From Planktothrix serta PCC 8927 (GTDB taxonomy: Bacteria > Cyanobacteriota > Cyanobacteriia > Cyanobacteriales > Microcoleaceae), in contig NZ_LR734844.1 of the NCBI RefSeq assembly GCF_900010725.2, positions 1 through 64,000 on the forward strand: DNA of 64,000 nucleotides, written 5' to 3'. Both the position numbers and the translations under genes were made by a program. Under the pieces are notes generated by a model, which saw only the letters and a list, made by a program, of their open reading frames with translations, was not told where the DNA came from and ran no database searches. This document shows positions 28,598 to 37,190 of this stretch, piece after piece (position 1 is the stretch's first letter; each line of letters begins with the position of its first letter).

Positions 28598-28728
28598 TAA
28601 AATTATCCTTTCTTAACGGATGTTGTACTTATCCCCAAGCCAATACTCGTGTTGGGTGTAATTACAAACGCTTCTGAGTTCAAGAATTGATCCCTTTCCT
28701 CTTAGCAAATTTACCCGATTTAAAACCC

Positions 28729-29367
28729 ATGAGTTCATCTGCTAATTCTGATAATATTATCAATAACCCTGTGAATTCTTCCCTGCCTTTAGAAGACAAT
28801 TCTACCAAACCAATCCCTTATGTTGCTCAAGAAGATATCATTTATCGCGCCTTTGATCGGAAAACGGTCTGTCGGGTTTTGAGTCAAGCTCATATTTATG
28901 TTTCCATTCGCTGGACAAGAACCCATCTTTATATTGGAATTCCGAGTACCGTTTTAGCCGCCGTTGCGGGTGTACAAGCCATCTCCAGTTTAGGAGGAAA
29001 TTATCAATTAGTTTCCATGATTATTCCAGTTTTAGTGGCTATTCTCGCACCCTTGTTAACCTTTTTAGATCCCAATGGTAAAGCAAATACCCATTTAGTC
29101 GCCTCCAGAGTTTATGAACAAATGGCAGATCAATATGATTCTTTTTTACTCAAATGTCGTTTAGAACCCCGATCCATTCAAGAAGAACTTAATGATTTAG
29201 TTCAAATTAATTCTGCATATAGTGAAAGTAAAAAATCCCTTCCAGCTTGTCCAGAATGGGCCTATCAACAAGCCCTTCACACGGAAAATGCCATCCAAAA
29301 ACTGATTCCTGATGAACTAAAAAAGGCAGGAGGTCATAATAGATTTAGGACGAATTCTCCCTCTTGA
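28729..29367 (+). CDS. SLATT/DUF4231-like two-helix membrane protein
   Basis: 212 aa from ATG 28729; a TTG 14 codons earlier is possible. A polar Ser/Asn-rich head, then RTHLYIGIPSTVLAAVAGVQ and LVSMIIPVLVAILAPLLTFL as a membrane hairpin (about 70-120), then a helical cytoplasmic tail starting HLVASRVYEQMADQYDSF. The layout of two helices followed by this charged helix is that of SLATT-type domains, pore-forming effectors linked to nucleotide-second-messenger defence. No nucleotide cyclase or SLOG gene is adjacent, so a defence role is unproven. Confidence 0.55.
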   Translation: MSSSANSDNIINNPVNSSLPLEDNSTKPIPYVAQEDIIYRAFDRKTVCRVLSQAHIYVSIRWTRTHLYIGIPSTVLAAVAGVQAISSLGGNYQLVSMIIPVLVAILAPLLTFLDPNGKANTHLVASRVYEQMADQYDSFLLKCRLEPRSIQEELNDLVQINSAYSESKKSLPACPEWAYQQALHTENAIQKLIPDELKKAGGHNRFRTNSPS

Positions 29368-29487: not shown

Positions 29488-30147
29488 ATGAATAAAATAC
29501 CATCTGATTTAGAAGGATTAGAAATTACTCCAGGGGAAATCAAACATTGGAGCGGTGTCAGCCCGAATTTATTGTATCGACCTGCTACACTCAAAAAATT
29601 GATGGGAGAAGGTTTAAAAACTTTTAGCATTGCGGTATTATTATTAATCAGTTATTGGATTTGGAGTTTGATTTTTCCTGAAATTTCCTTAATCTTTATC
29701 ATGATTTATTTAATCATTGGAGTTCTATTAATCCTTGAGGATAGTATCAAATTTTGGAACACCTTAACCCGTCCCCAGTTTGTTAAACTCTGTAATCAAG
29801 TTGATCGTTATAACGCAATGGTTAAAGCCTTAAGCATTTATGATCAACTCGAAGCAACGGAACATTCCCCAGGAAAATTAAACAATAGAGCAGCAATTAT
29901 TGAAGCCTTAAACTTAATTAGAACCGAATTAATTAGAGGATTAAAAATAGAACGAACCTTAAAAAAGCATCAAAAATTTATTCAGCAACATTCAGAACTA
30001 TTTGACCCCAATTTTACCGCCTTAACCGTCTTACAAACAGAAGAACCCACAACAGAACAAGGAAGACTCCTCTATCAAGCCTTTGAAATTGCTTCAGAAG
30101 TTTATCTACACTTAAAACAACTTCAGGCTCAACAAACTTCCCGTTAA
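29488..30147 (+). CDS. Unrecognised two-helix membrane protein, 219 aa
   Basis: I do not recognise the family. A soluble N-terminus (1-40) is followed by two closely spaced membrane helices (about 50-68 and 72-92; TFSIAVLLLISYWIWSLIF). The helical, mostly charged C-terminal about 120 residues start PQFVKLCNQVDRYNAMVKAL. The topology (hairpin plus helical tail) parallels the SLATT-like gene 120 nt upstream, suggesting a functional pair. GGAGG precedes the start. Confidence 0.62.
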   Translation: MNKIPSDLEGLEITPGEIKHWSGVSPNLLYRPATLKKLMGEGLKTFSIAVLLLISYWIWSLIFPEISLIFIMIYLIIGVLLILEDSIKFWNTLTRPQFVKLCNQVDRYNAMVKALSIYDQLEATEHSPGKLNNRAAIIEALNLIRTELIRGLKIERTLKKHQKFIQQHSELFDPNFTALTVLQTEEPTTEQGRLLYQAFEIASEVYLHLKQLQAQQTSR

Positions 30148-31683: not shown

Positions 31684-33153
31684 CTATGGTTTCTTCTTCT
31701 TAAAAATCCAAGCCAGTCCCAGAATTCCTACATAAAAGAAGAACGCCACTATAAACCAGATTATTACTGATATTATAAAGGTCATGCTGGGATCATCAGT
31801 CGAATATTTCTTTACTAATAGACCAGAACTAGAGACTGCAATCCCTCCCGCGCTCATTCCTGTACCGACGGCTAAAATTTGGATTTGGAGTTGATAATTA
31901 TTCTCTTGTTCCCGTTTTTCATGACGGTATTGGTTTTCGGTTTGTTCAATTTCTGTAATTCCCCGAATAGATGCGATCGCTCGATCTACTAAAGTAGAAC
32001 CCTCAACAAAATAGTTGAGTTGATATTTAATTCGCTCTTGGAAATATTGGCTATCTTCGTTAATAAAAGCCGAAAAGAAATCTAAATTTTTCTCAGAATG
32101 AATCGATGATTTTTCTTTTAATTTCCGTTGAATTTCTTTGAGGGTTTGTTGATAGTTTTTACTATTAATTACAATTGTATTTCTATAATGTTTTAAATTG
32201 CGGAGGGTTTGAGAATAGGTAAAATCTAGCTGAGATAAAGCTTTAAGTTTTTGTTTAAGAAACTTTAAGTCTGCTTCATTTAAAAAAGATTCATCTGTTA
32301 TTTCCTGATTTAAAAATTCATTTAAACTTTTGATTTCTCCTTGAATTTTACTATAATAATTAAAAGCTTTTTCATATTGTTTGAGGCTTCCCTGGTAGTC
32401 TGTAATCACTTTATTACGATAACAAAATAAATCAATAAACTTAGGGTAACAATCAATAAAATCTTCACTGCTTTGATTTTTTCTGAATAACCAAATTAAA
32501 ATATGACAGTGATGAAGATCTGAAGAATCAATATTGATTTCACTTAAATTATTGATTTCACTTAAATTATCATATTCAAAAATAGGGCTTCCAAATAATT
32601 CTCCTTGGTTTTTTAGGGGAGGAAGTTGTTGAGCATTGGGGATAAATTTTTCTAAACATTTTTGAGCTAAAATTTCTAAATCTTCAATTGAGCTTTGTTT
32701 AAATTCCTCTGGAATAAAAGCAGTAATTAATAAAGTTTGTCCGAGAGAACTATTAACAAATTTGGGTAAAAATATCTGATTTCGATTAATTTCTCGTAAA
32801 AAATTTAAAGATACTTCTTCTGTTTTTTTACCATTCTCCTTTTCGGGACGGCGCAAATTAAATGCTAGAGCATAACTATCATGAAGACATTTAGCATAAA
32901 CTTTTCCAGTAATCGGAATTCCACTATAGCGGAGTTTTTCCGCAATGGGTAAACTTTTGGAGTTTTCGGAAGGTTCAAAGTTATATTGCTCAAGATGTAA
33001 CCGTTTTGAAAAATGCAGATTTTCTAATATTTCATCACACTTTTGCCAAAGTTTATTAGCGTCAGTAACTCTATTGTTTCCATCGTCTCTTAAAGCTTTC
33101 CACAGATGAAATGCAAATAAATGTAAATTAGGTGCATAAACTTTTTCTATCAT
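31684..33153 (-). CDS. Unrecognised protein with C-terminal two-helix membrane domain (third gene of CHAT operon)
   Basis: 489 aa. A large soluble N-terminal part (1-200) of no recognised fold includes KVYAKCLHDSYALAFNLRRP. A long helical, coiled-coil-rich middle (about 235-420, for example RNLKHYRNTIVINSKNYQQT) follows. The C-terminal 70 residues hold two membrane helices (about 420-445 and 458-482) and end in a basic KKKKP tail. The start lies 1 nt after the stop of the upstream 148-aa gene, so the two are translationally coupled. A membrane effector role is inferred only from operon context. Confidence 0.7.
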   Translation of the reverse strand: MIEKVYAPNLHLFAFHLWKALRDDGNNRVTDANKLWQKCDEILENLHFSKRLHLEQYNFEPSENSKSLPIAEKLRYSGIPITGKVYAKCLHDSYALAFNLRRPEKENGKKTEEVSLNFLREINRNQIFLPKFVNSSLGQTLLITAFIPEEFKQSSIEDLEILAQKCLEKFIPNAQQLPPLKNQGELFGSPIFEYDNLSEINNLSEINIDSSDLHHCHILIWLFRKNQSSEDFIDCYPKFIDLFCYRNKVITDYQGSLKQYEKAFNYYSKIQGEIKSLNEFLNQEITDESFLNEADLKFLKQKLKALSQLDFTYSQTLRNLKHYRNTIVINSKNYQQTLKEIQRKLKEKSSIHSEKNLDFFSAFINEDSQYFQERIKYQLNYFVEGSTLVDRAIASIRGITEIEQTENQYRHEKREQENNYQLQIQILAVGTGMSAGGIAVSSSGLLVKKYSTDDPSMTFIISVIIWFIVAFFFYVGILGLAWIFKKKKP

Positions 33154-33154
33154 C

Positions 33155-33601
33155 TTAATGATTAATCCATTGGCTTAAAATTTGCTTGACATAATCCAGA
33201 ATAGGAACTGTAACGGGACAATCTTCGCTACTTTGAGGGGGAGGTGTAATTAAAATTCTAACTTCAGAACTAGAAATTTCTGATGGAGAATCTTCTGAGG
33301 TTGCGAGTTGACAATTCGGAATAATCAAGCGATATTTATGGGGATCAGAATCGATAATCTCTTCAAGTTCTGTTCGATATTTTCGCTTCTTAGCTTGATC
33401 ATATAGATTTAACCGTTGTTCATGATCTCCACACCATTCTATAATAGAATTCGCAGCTTGTTGAATTTGATCAGGTTTTAAATTTTCCAGTTGTTCTAAT
33501 AATCGGGTTAAACTGGATTTATCCTGAGCTTCAAGAATGGGAGGTTGTATTTCTAACAGTTCTAAAAAGCAGACTAGGGTTTCAATAGAGTCTTGCATCA
33601 T
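33155..33601 (-). CDS. Unrecognised 148-aa protein (second gene of CHAT operon)
   Basis: 148 aa. The N-terminal about 75 residues are a compact helical region (ETLVCFLELLEIQPPILEAQ ... ANSIIEWCGDHEQRLNLYDQ), which could be a small adaptor domain. The rest contains an acidic, Ser-rich middle and short beta segments (YRLIIPNCQLA; VRILITPPP). I cannot assign a family. It lies 49 nt after the TPR-CHAT gene and 1 nt before the membrane protein gene, a position suited to an adaptor between protease and effector. Confidence 0.65.
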   Translation of the reverse strand: MMQDSIETLVCFLELLEIQPPILEAQDKSSLTRLLEQLENLKPDQIQQAANSIIEWCGDHEQRLNLYDQAKKRKYRTELEEIIDSDPHKYRLIIPNCQLATSEDSPSEISSSEVRILITPPPQSSEDCPVTVPILDYVKQILSQWINH

Positions 33602-33650
33602 TTATTCCCTCAACGGATTGACAATAATAGAAGATCAAGATAATTCTAAC

Positions 33651-36600
33651 CTATTTTCCAATTGCACAAAAACCCGCCCAATAATAGGCTTCTTTAAAAG
33701 GTTGATAGGTTGATAAACGCCACGCTAAGTTTAACTCTTGACTGAGGTTTGGTTTCGATTCTGGCTTTAATTGTAGCGCATTCCACCATTTTAGCAGGTT
33801 TTCTTTATCAACGGTTCTTAACCAGTTTTGGGCTTGATTTAAGGCTAAACTCACGGACTTTTCAGATCGAAACAGTTCATAAAACTTAATCATTAAAATC
33901 GCCGTTGATAAATCACTGACTCGCCATAAACTACAAATCACATTTTTAACCCCTGCAAACAGGAACCCACTGGAAAGACTAATATATTCTTCTAAAGTCT
34001 GATCAAATTGCGTTAACCCCGTTTCACAGGCGGATAATGTCACCAGTTCCCCTTTTGGGAAATCTAAACTAAAGATTTCGCGGAGGGTATAACATTGGTC
34101 GGTATCGACTTGTTTACCTTTTCTCCAAGGAAGATAACGCTTGGTTTCTGGAGAATCTAATTCTTCCTGAGTTTGGCGATCGCTCGATTCAAATACTTCT
34201 ACAATTCCCCCTGCTAAAATTAAATGGGATAATAACGGAAATTGAAAGTTAAACGACCCGTGACAAGCAAAGTGGAGATAATTAGCATCTCGAAAGAGGT
34301 CACTATTAGGAGGTTGAGTCAGGGCGATTTTAGTCGCTTTTTCACGCGATAAAATATTAGCGGTAAATTGAGAGGCGATCGCATCCACTTCTAATTCTGC
34401 AAAGTCTAAGTCTTTTGTGGGATTTTGAATCGCAAATAATTGAATATTATTAACAGCATGGTCGGGATTTTCTTCCCGCAAGGCAATATTTTCTAACGAC
34501 ATTAACCCCATTTGCAAACTCGGTAAATATTGCACCCCCTGAGAGAATTTATCAAATAGACAGAGGGTTTTTCCGTTATCTTTAGCAACGGGTAAGGCAT
34601 GGAGGGGAAATAAATGTAATTCTCGATAGGGAACTAAGATTAACCGTTGACAGAAGGCGGGAATTTTACTCAAAATATACTGAATATTCAGAATTTCGGC
34701 TAATTCTTCTAAAAACGGTTCTAACTGATTTTCCCAGATGTCGGTTTTGCTATTATAGGTTTTTAAATAGCGATCGCGCAATTCCACCACTGCCGTCACC
34801 GCTTCCGGTTTTGATTGCCAATAATCCATCGAAAAACCATTAACTAAATTTTCACCATCAACAACACTCTCCCTGTCATTACTCTCACTGTCATTCTGAG
34901 CGCAGCGAAGAATCTCAGAGATGTTTCGCTCCCCAGCATTACCCTCAACAACACTCTCACTGTCATTCTGAGCGAAGCGAAGAATCTCAGAGATGTTTCG
35001 CTCCCCAGCATTACCCTCAACACCACTCTCCCTGTCATTCTGAGCGCAGCGAAGAATCTCTAAGATGTTTCGCTCCCCAGCATTACCCTCAACAACACTC
35101 TCACTGTCATTCTGAGCGCAGCGAAGAATCTCTGAGATGTTTCGCTTCTCTGCGTTCCGCTCAACATGACAAGGGGAATCTGCCCAAACGATAAACGCAT
35201 AAATCCTTTCCGACGCGATAAACCATTCCACTAAGGCCGTTTTCTCTGGCAATAATGCCGGAATTTCTGATAGATTAATCCGTTGCACCCGTTGGGTATA
35301 TTCAAAGGTGGAATCAAAGGTTTTAATCTGTTCTAAAACTTGATTTAATTCCTGCTTTTGCTGAACCAAAGTTTCCCGAATTTGATTAATAGAATCAATC
35401 GGAATATTAACAGCACCCGCACTTCGACTTTGAGGAGAATCTGGATCAGTCCCATCAGCCGGAATATCGCCGCCTAAAGATTCGATAAACCGTTGATTAG
35501 CAGAAAGTTCCCGACGCAACTGTTCTAACCGTTGACAAATCTCTGGTGGGGTATTTTTCGGCAATAAATCTCGGTTAACCAAGAGTTCAATTAAACTGCG
35601 AGACTTGCCGCGCTCCAGGGTGACTAAGGCTTGAGCGATCTGGTTCTGATGCAGATAAGCTTGGATAAGGCGCTCATAAACCCCAACATTCTCACGCCGT
35701 CGCTGTTGTTTATTGGCATCGGAGCGATCGCGGTGACAGAGTTCTTCTAAAGCATCCAGGGCGGCTTCATAGCCCGTAATAGCCAGTTGCCAGTTTTCCA
35801 CCTCAAAAGCCGTATCACCCAAATTACGCCCGAGCAATAAATATTGTACCGGAAACTCCAGGGGAGAAGATAAAGCTAGGGCAGATTGCCAGATTTCCAA
35901 GGCTCGGGGGATTTGTAGCAGGTCATTGTAGGTAGATGCCAAGTTATTCAGACTATAAAATTCTCCGTAACGATCTCCGATTTCCCGTGAAATCGTTAAA
36001 GCCTGCTGATGATAGTTGATGGCTTGTTGATGTTGCCCCAACAAGTAATTGTGAGCAAGGCCCAAATTGCCCAGAACATTGCCTTCTTGCACACGATCTC
36101 TGATTTCCTGATAAATCGTTAAAGCTTGGTGATAATAGTCGATAACTTGTTGATTCTGCCTTAAGCAAAGGTAAACAATGCCCAAATTGACCAGAGCAAT
36201 GCCTTCTCTCCTACGATTTCCGATTTTCCGTGCAATGGTTAAAGCCTGCTGATGATAGTTGATGGCTTGTTGATATTGTCGCAAGCAAAGGTAAACATTG
36301 CCCAACTTGTCCAGAGCATGGCCTTCTCCGCTACGATTTCCGATTTCCTGATAAATGGTTAAAGCCTGCTGATAATAGTCGATGGCTTGTTGATATTGCA
36401 CCGAATCGTGAGCATTGCCCAAATTGACCAGAGCATTGCCTTCTCCCTCACGATCTCCGATTTCCTGATAAATGGTTAAAGCCTGCTGATAATAGTCGAT
36501 GGCTTGTTGATATTGCCTGAAGCAAAGGTAAAAATCGCCCAAATACTTGAGAGCATTGCCTTCTCCCTCACGATTTCCGATTTCCTGTGAAATCGTTAAA

Positions 36601-37190
36601 GCCTGCTGATGATAGTCGATGGCTTGTTGATTCTGCACCAAGGAACGGTAAGCAACGCCCAAATTATTGAGAACTTTTGCTTCTTCTCCGCTACGATCTC
36701 CGATTTCCCGTACAATGGTTAAAGCCTGCTGATAATAGTCGATGGCTGGTTGATATTGCCCCAAGAAACGGTAAGCAAAGCCCAAATTATTGAGAGCATG
36801 GCCTTCTCCGCTACGATCTCCGATTTCCTGATAAATGGTTAAAGCCTGCTGATGATAGTCGATGGCTTGTTGATTCTGCCCCAAGGAAACGTAAGCAACG
36901 CCCAAATTATTGAGAACTTTTGCTTCTCCGCTACGATCTCCGATTTCCTGATAAATGGTTAAAGCCTGTTGATGATAGTCGATGGCTTGTTGATTCTGCC
37001 CCAAGGAACCGTAAGCAAGGCCCAAACGGTTGAGAGCATTGCCTTCTCCCTGACGATCTCCGATTTCCTGATAAATGGTTAAAGCTTGCTGCCAGGATTG
37101 TAACGCTTGACGATATTGACTACGGTAATATTCCTCAAGTCCTTGATCTAACAAGCGCTCCGCTTCAGCTTTTTTCTGTTCTGGGGTCAT
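33651..37190 (-). CDS. TPR-CHAT protease (caspase-like) with inserted repeat block
   Basis: 1179 aa. Residues 1 to about 420 carry ten or so TPR units of 40 residues, kinesin-light-chain type, consensus AIDYHQQALTIYQEIGDRSG. A helical linker (about 430-620) leads to a CHAT domain (about 650-1179) with catalytic His977 in HFACHGSF and Cys1055 in LSACETGL, so the caspase-like dyad is intact. Residues about 671-766 are an insertion of four 24-residue repeats (ISEILRCAQND-type) encoded by 72-bp DNA repeats. TPR-CHAT proteins act as regulated proteases in bacterial immunity and cell death. First gene of a three-gene operon. Confidence 0.9.
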   Translation of the reverse strand: MTPEQKKAEAERLLDQGLEEYYRSQYRQALQSWQQALTIYQEIGDRQGEGNALNRLGLAYGSLGQNQQAIDYHQQALTIYQEIGDRSGEAKVLNNLGVAYVSLGQNQQAIDYHQQALTIYQEIGDRSGEGHALNNLGFAYRFLGQYQPAIDYYQQALTIVREIGDRSGEEAKVLNNLGVAYRSLVQNQQAIDYHQQALTISQEIGNREGEGNALKYLGDFYLCFRQYQQAIDYYQQALTIYQEIGDREGEGNALVNLGNAHDSVQYQQAIDYYQQALTIYQEIGNRSGEGHALDKLGNVYLCLRQYQQAINYHQQALTIARKIGNRRREGIALVNLGIVYLCLRQNQQVIDYYHQALTIYQEIRDRVQEGNVLGNLGLAHNYLLGQHQQAINYHQQALTISREIGDRYGEFYSLNNLASTYNDLLQIPRALEIWQSALALSSPLEFPVQYLLLGRNLGDTAFEVENWQLAITGYEAALDALEELCHRDRSDANKQQRRRENVGVYERLIQAYLHQNQIAQALVTLERGKSRSLIELLVNRDLLPKNTPPEICQRLEQLRRELSANQRFIESLGGDIPADGTDPDSPQSRSAGAVNIPIDSINQIRETLVQQKQELNQVLEQIKTFDSTFEYTQRVQRINLSEIPALLPEKTALVEWFIASERIYAFIVWADSPCHVERNAEKRNISEILRCAQNDSESVVEGNAGERNILEILRCAQNDRESGVEGNAGERNISEILRFAQNDSESVVEGNAGERNISEILRCAQNDSESNDRESVVDGENLVNGFSMDYWQSKPEAVTAVVELRDRYLKTYNSKTDIWENQLEPFLEELAEILNIQYILSKIPAFCQRLILVPYRELHLFPLHALPVAKDNGKTLCLFDKFSQGVQYLPSLQMGLMSLENIALREENPDHAVNNIQLFAIQNPTKDLDFAELEVDAIASQFTANILSREKATKIALTQPPNSDLFRDANYLHFACHGSFNFQFPLLSHLILAGGIVEVFESSDRQTQEELDSPETKRYLPWRKGKQVDTDQCYTLREIFSLDFPKGELVTLSACETGLTQFDQTLEEYISLSSGFLFAGVKNVICSLWRVSDLSTAILMIKFYELFRSEKSVSLALNQAQNWLRTVDKENLLKWWNALQLKPESKPNLSQELNLAWRLSTYQPFKEAYYWAGFCAIGK
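34891..35178. repeat. Four 72-bp repeats inside the CHAT gene
   Basis: The plus strand carries TCATTCTGAGCGCAGCGAAG at 34891, 34963 (one base differs), 35035 and 35107, exactly 72 bp apart, each followed by AATCTC and GATGTTTCGCT. This is a dispersed bacterial intergenic repeat, here amplified and kept in frame (72 = 3 x 24), with each unit encoding about 24 residues. Confidence 0.93.

Follow-up and report, generated by a model that had tools for sequence, protein, structure and literature searches.

A recurrent TPR-CHAT protease operon of cyanobacteria as a candidate protease-gated conflict or cell-death module

A 64,000-nucleotide stretch of Planktothrix serta PCC 8927 (contig NZ_LR734844.1, positions 1 to 64,000; hereafter the window) carries a three-gene operon that encodes a TPR-CHAT protease, a small helical protein and a membrane-anchored partner. 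The operon represents a recurrent, modular protease-adaptor-output system, broader than a preliminary description of the window had noted, and both the linkage of its genes and their modularity are evident in the loci compared below. Because the three genes travel and evolve together, the module probably serves as a switch for defence or cell death that is triggered by a protease and has so far gone undescribed. On the best reading of its third protein, the N-terminal region is constant, whereas the C-terminal output attached to it can be swapped and is in most cases a two-helix membrane hairpin of CorA-like topology.

The three open reading frames (ORFs) are arranged head to tail on the minus strand, where all features given for the operon lie. 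The first gene (33651..37190) encodes the protease, of 1179 amino acids, which is recognised by Pfam as CHAT and TPR_12. After a gap of 49 nucleotides comes the gene for the 148-residue helical protein (33155..33601), proposed to act as an adaptor between the protease and its membrane partner. A single nucleotide separates it from the gene for the 489-residue membrane-anchored partner (31684..33153), a proposed pro-effector. Recomputed ORF coordinates agree with the three genes and spacing given in the preliminary description. The host genome is 6.27 Mb and Planktothrix-like, and P. rubescens PCC 7821 is among the operon's nearest named relatives. A promoter scan was uninformative, with 18 observed against 14.8 expected.

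A profile of seven 489-family proteins finds matches in 47 of 386 cyanobacterial genomes and in 29 of 142 genera, all within the window's own order except for one weak match. Copy numbers are lower bounds, because at most four candidates were scored per genome. The distribution of the module centres on filamentous genera. The surroundings of 80 profile-matched places and of 80 loci from named genomes yielded, after de-duplication, 154 distinct 489-family genes, for 132 of which 2 kb or more of upstream sequence was available. A CHAT gene is found within 3.5 kb upstream, on the same strand, in 121 of the 132, and caspase C14 takes the place of CHAT in 5 of the remaining 11. The preliminary description would have been refuted if the downstream genes were not linked to CHAT genes elsewhere; it passed this test strongly. 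The gene order is likewise conserved, as it recurs at more than 100 distinct loci and hence is not due to chance. A same-strand ORF of 80-185 amino acids directly precedes the 489-family gene at 137 loci (median gap 1 nucleotide; 94 within 20 nucleotides), whereas the downstream side, used as a control, has such an ORF in 7 of 167 cases.

The family also occurs on 13 plasmid records, of which 12 are conjugative or mobilizable. A plasmid of P. agardhii has the full CHAT-small-489 order, and a Pseudanabaena plasmid, from another order, has the gene order small-489-CHAT-CHAT. No relative of the module was found among IMG/VR viral contigs.

The window protein has six diverged paralogues in its own genome, 24-33% identical to it in alignment, which makes seven members. 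A CHAT gene is located upstream of five of the seven and a caspase C14 gene upstream of one; a rough binomial estimate with a 1.6% background gives p ~2e-8 for five of seven lying beside CHAT by chance. In four of the copies (C51, C62, C5 and C57), a small ORF separates the family gene from an upstream CHAT gene, and C49 has a caspase C14-nSTAND1 gene and small genes. The C65 locus (L038:7205-11938) has been rearranged by toxin-antitoxin-like genes: it is interrupted by HEPN, nucleotidyltransferase-like and PIN-like genes, the nucleotidyltransferase-like gene is duplicated, and a truncated second 489 start is found beside the separated small gene. At another locus (L037:4351-4988), two small genes that resemble HicB-like and DUF433-like antitoxin genes intervene between the adaptor gene and that of the 489 family.

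The CHAT domain of the protease occupies residues 827-1178 (33657..34712; PF12770, E 2e-44, 152.5 bits against a cut-off of 24). Its catalytic residues are His977 in HFACHG (codon at 34260..34262) and Cys1055 in SACETG (codon at 34026..34028), where the preliminary description had placed them. Both are kept in all 113 distinct linked CHATs of testable length. Ten TPR_12 stretches (E 1e-103) were found in the protein, and the TPR region, residues ~5-442 (35865..37178), is a putative sensing or scaffold part; TPRs are also present in those linked CHATs that were scanned. The host genome has 25 CHAT domain matches. Tree building groups 106 of the 109 linked CHATs in one clade with support 0.97, and none of the 13 unlinked CHATs tested from the host genome falls inside it. 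Mirror-tree comparison of CHAT distances with those of the 489 partners gives r = 0.72, whereas 500 within-genome shuffles average 0.33 and reach at most 0.57. Because the observed value exceeds every permutation, the pairing of CHAT and 489 paralogues is specific. By these sequence comparisons, the linked CHATs are active-looking, specialised and co-evolving proteases.

A loop of the CHAT region in the window protease is enlarged by four in-frame tandem copies of a 72-nucleotide repeat (34809..35166), which encodes a peptide of about NAGERNISEILRCAQNDSESVVEG. Comparison with two related loci reveals one remnant of this repeat in L154 and none in L155 (P. rubescens). Both loci have instead a different in-frame repeat, of about SKGGTEGGSNLPHL, which lies between the two residues of the catalytic dyad.

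The small protein is predicted to be helical, as described earlier: its model consists of a four-helix bundle at residues 2-75 (block pLDDT 68-91), and the tail that follows, which includes a C-terminal helix, is modelled poorly. Small proteins of the module are of two subtypes, and a profile alignment matches the first two helices of one with those of the other (hhalign probability 71%, 35 columns). The small domain is joined to the C-terminus of CHAT at two loci (L138 and L144); at a third (L164) it is attached at the C-terminal end of the 489-family protein, beyond the membrane hairpin. Profile searches, as proposed in the preliminary description, revealed no Pfam, NCBIfam or PADLOC family over cut-off that covers the 148- or the 489-residue protein. 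In particular, the window small protein has no match over cut-off to Pfam EAD or bDLD families, and a PDB fold search with the small protein also gave no match. An orphan homologue of the small adaptor (L244:7169-7531, E 7.8e-10) is located downstream of two coiled-coil proteins, with neither CHAT nor the 489 family nearby. On the Herpetosiphon plasmid pHAU01, a 116-residue gene (L249:2949-3299) begins 40 nucleotides after a CHAT gene; because it does not match the small-adaptor profile, it may represent a parallel arrangement.

The 489-residue protein was modelled by AlphaFold2 on 51 sequences, with a mean pLDDT of 84. The model comprises an alpha/beta domain at residues 1-223 (32485..33153), a helical coiled-coil stalk at residues ~226-420 (31894..32478), and a C-terminal hydrophobic hairpin at residues ~422-487 (31693..31890). 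Its long helices span residues 236-284, 293-348 and 354-450, and a last helix spans 455-486. The hydrophobic segments lie at 422-442 and 451-487, so the coiled coil and two-helix hairpin of the preliminary description are both recovered. Exactly two such segments occur within the last 160 residues in 73 of 87 family members. The first is glycine-rich, and G430, G432 and G436 are conserved. Neither Pfam nor the model reveals a nuclease in this protein. A PADLOC match to LeoBC (E 7.5e-4; 5 of 51 members) was put down to coiled-coil composition, and PADLOC finds no system match for the operon beyond generic TPR models and weak coiled-coil matches.

The C-terminal hairpin can be exchanged. At two loci from two genera (L148 and L150), the N-terminal and coiled-coil module of the family is followed by bDLD1, a Death-like domain, and Trypsin_2, and the hairpin is absent. 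These family genes lie downstream of two or more CHAT ORFs. By eye, the trypsin triad motifs of the two proteins (L148:3373-5835 and L150:7701-10076) appear intact. The protease can be exchanged as well. Caspase-nSTAND1 is the neighbouring protease at L041 and L078, a divergently oriented caspase-nSTAND1-WD40 protein is encoded at L140, and on plasmids the small-489 pair is adjoined by caspase genes or by caspase and trypsin genes. At L145 (6843-12584) the neighbour, divergent from the small-489 pair, is a giant protein of 1913 residues that combines caspase C14, a STAND-like ATPase, TPRs, a RelA/SpoT synthetase, TGS and ACT.

Two further genes of the window lie near the operon. At 28687-29367, 2.3 kb away and on the opposite strand, is a gene for a SLATT_4 protein with two transmembrane segments, a predicted conflict-system effector type (NCBIfam 94 bits against a cut-off of 55; PADLOC 2TM effector, E 2e-20). 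The gene after it (29488-30147) encodes a protein that appears to be membrane-bound and has no family match.

The mechanism that we propose is modelled by analogy on canu, a three-gene anti-phage unit composed of the caspase CanA, its complex partner CanB and the pro-nuclease CanC (PMC12799240). The TPR array of the CHAT protease would sense a signal of infection or stress, either by itself or with the help of a partner. The small helical protein might then link the protease to the third protein at its N-terminal and coiled-coil module, as the gene fusions suggest. CHAT would cleave the third protein or the adaptor, and so free or rearrange the C-terminal output; the strict conservation of the His/Cys dyad supports such a step. 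The common output would be the two-helix hairpin on its long helical stalk, which might permeabilise or otherwise disturb the membrane, and in the rare forms the output would be the Death-like domain and trypsin.

Coupling of protease, adaptor and third protein is supported by invariant catalysis, fusions, co-evolution and output swapping. Dependence on the protease is supported indirectly, as the catalytic residues are invariant, the genes co-evolve and are sometimes fused, and one protease may be swapped for another. The preliminary description had read the operon as a candidate protease-gated effector system whose partner could act on the membrane, and this reading is partly supported. The linkage to CHAT recurs, and the exchange of the hairpin, of all parts, for a Death-like domain and trypsin makes a membrane effector plausible; the parallels drawn with gasdermins and Csx29 are analogies only. 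We infer that the third protein may be cleaved, may form a pore and may serve in phage defence, and we are equally cautious about whether it is effector or sensor, about the trigger and about what happens to the membrane. We give about even chances to a three-gene, protease-gated conflict or cell-death module. A wider scheme, which we regard as possible but short of probable, is an undescribed apoptosis-like proteolytic cascade of filamentous cyanobacteria. In such a cascade, a constant pair of small adaptor and N-terminal/coiled-coil receiver would be served by interchangeable proteases at its input (CHAT, caspase-STAND and possibly trypsin) and by interchangeable outputs (the hairpin, or the Death-like domain and trypsin), with several insulated copies per cell.

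Observations on a protease-released, CorA-like effector point both ways. In its favour, the model follows a CorA-type arrangement, with an N-terminal alpha/beta domain, a long stalk helix that runs into the first transmembrane helix, and a hairpin with the second, and CorA is the best Foldseek match in the PDB (E 1.4e-4), with CorA or MRS2 making up six of the top nine. Against it, TM-scores are low, at 0.14-0.22 to CorA and 0.12-0.22 by query. The CorA profile PF01544, even with the threshold relaxed to E 10, matches no paralogue among the seven, the GMN motif between the membrane helices is absent from the window protein, and the hairpin is modelled at moderate confidence (pLDDT ~53-79). Because the TM-scores are low and the profile is negative, CorA-like topology is a description, and membership in the CorA family was rejected. 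At six distinct 489-family loci, CHAT and caspase C14 are both missing from the neighbourhood. Also, no cleavage site was identified and no conserved gating insertion was found.

The main rival explanation reverses the direction of signalling. The 489-residue protein might be a membrane sensor or anchor that reports envelope damage and, by way of the adaptor, recruits and activates the CHAT protease, whose true substrates would be elsewhere in the cell. Gene coupling, co-evolution and adaptor fusions are compatible with either direction, and a neighbouring protease that may be of three kinds would suit a sensor. The glycine-rich first membrane helix also recalls the EACC1 membrane component, proposed as a caspase-activating sensor by Kaur et al. 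(PMC7159879). However, the exchange of the hairpin for a Death-like domain and an apparently intact trypsin resembles exchange of an output, and the sensor-like parts of these systems, large TPR, WD40 or STAND regions, sit on the protease, not on the 489-residue protein. We consider a sensor or anchor unlikely. A role in development or cell division instead of defence, with the membrane protein as a localisation factor or substrate, is suggested by HetF, a CHAT protein that heterocyst differentiation and division require. HetF belongs to filamentous cyanobacteria, is needed for heterocyst initiation and is a reported divisome component (PMC8406250). The concentration of the module in filamentous genera would fit such a role. 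However, patchy presence, many divergent paralogues per genome, carriage on plasmids, and Death-like, caspase, STAND and RelA/SpoT partners are all typical of conflict systems and would not be expected of a conserved developmental gene. The module is also found in Planktothrix, which makes no heterocysts. A HetF-like regulator appears improbable.

Two other proposals concern the nature of the third protein. It might form pores from alpha-helices in the manner of ClyA/NheC instead of being a CorA-like channel, as the NheC profile matches 3 of 51 members (best E 2.7e-5), ClyA structures appear in the Foldseek list (E ~0.05), and the model is a helical bundle with a hydrophobic hairpin. This proposal is very improbable in our judgement: the hairpin is C-terminal and follows a single 97-residue helix, an N-terminal alpha/beta domain is present that ClyA lacks, and coiled-coil composition alone could explain the weak matches. 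The other proposal is a distant link to CATRA (caspase and TPR repeat-associated) systems, which are the closest predicted kind; this possible link represents the main caveat on novelty. It concerns family membership and does not conflict with the mechanism favoured above. Three members match CATRA-C (PF20270) at residues ~239-353, right after the N-terminal domain, with E 0.0036-0.043; the match covers profile positions 26-131 of 137 in two of them and 26-99 in L220. A neighbouring caspase-like protease with TPRs is shared with CATRA systems, and both the family names and the caspase-dependent CATRA ternary systems with effector domains that are mentioned in PMC8195603 fit the caspase-TPR-effector layout. 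In contrast, the best CATRA-C match reaches 18.5 bits (E 0.0036) where the curated cut-off is 24.6, and coiled-coil bias may account for the CATRA-C match. CATRA-N (PF20269) matches no paralogue from the host genome at E 10, and CATRA-C exceeds its cut-off in none of the 386 cyanobacterial genomes. On balance, kinship with CATRA is doubtful.

The proposed protease-gated conflict or cell-death module resembles several known systems in part. Canu also joins a caspase-family protease, a small complexing partner and a pro-effector switched by the protease in three genes, and TPR parts occur in canu loci (PMC12799240). However, the window protease is a TPR-CHAT protein, and the third protein is membrane-anchored and does not have the MBL-fold of the canu pro-nuclease according to Pfam and the model. 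Type III-E CRISPR Craspase (Csx29) shares a TPR-CHAT protease whose dyad is intact and whose target is a partner protein. The partner proteins are different, though, and the window protease scores 51.8 bits with the Csx29 model (NCBIfam NF041237), far under the cut-off of 300, so Csx29 identity was rejected. A CorA-family protein of type III-B CRISPR systems, an immune membrane effector and proposed channel (PMC10600005), similarly has a soluble N-terminal domain and C-terminal membrane helices, but the window protein lacks the CorA profile match and GMN motif, and is coupled to a protease rather than to SAM-AMP. Bacterial gasdermins share the general idea of a membrane-damaging partner encoded beside a protease. 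The window partner, in contrast, has no gasdermin match among the Pfam scans or the first 50 Foldseek matches, and its predicted fold consists of helices and a small alpha/beta domain; gasdermin identity was rejected, as neither sequence nor fold supports it.

A further related setting is the EAD/bDLD/STAND conflict network of multicellular bacteria, as described in PMC7159879 and PMC8195603. The module shares with it effector swapping, small adaptor proteins, mostly filamentous hosts, and Death-like, caspase, trypsin, nSTAND1 and RelA/SpoT partners. Because of its Death-like, caspase, STAND, trypsin and RelA/SpoT partners, we place the module in the multicellular-bacteria conflict network of Kaur et al. 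The adaptor differs in that it is not a recognised EAD, as EAD8 matches 1 of 42 small-protein homologues at E 0.018. The core pair of small protein and 489-family protein was not found in the passages of the two papers that were consulted.

CHAT proteases are abundant in cyanobacteria, and most have no known partner. Here, a whole clade of CHATs acquires a fixed partner pair and therefore a testable substrate. If the third protein is indeed a membrane effector released by the protease, the module would represent a non-gasdermin, membrane-acting branch of bacterial caspase-like immunity. The long debate on whether bloom-forming cyanobacteria undergo programmed cell death would also gain a concrete candidate.

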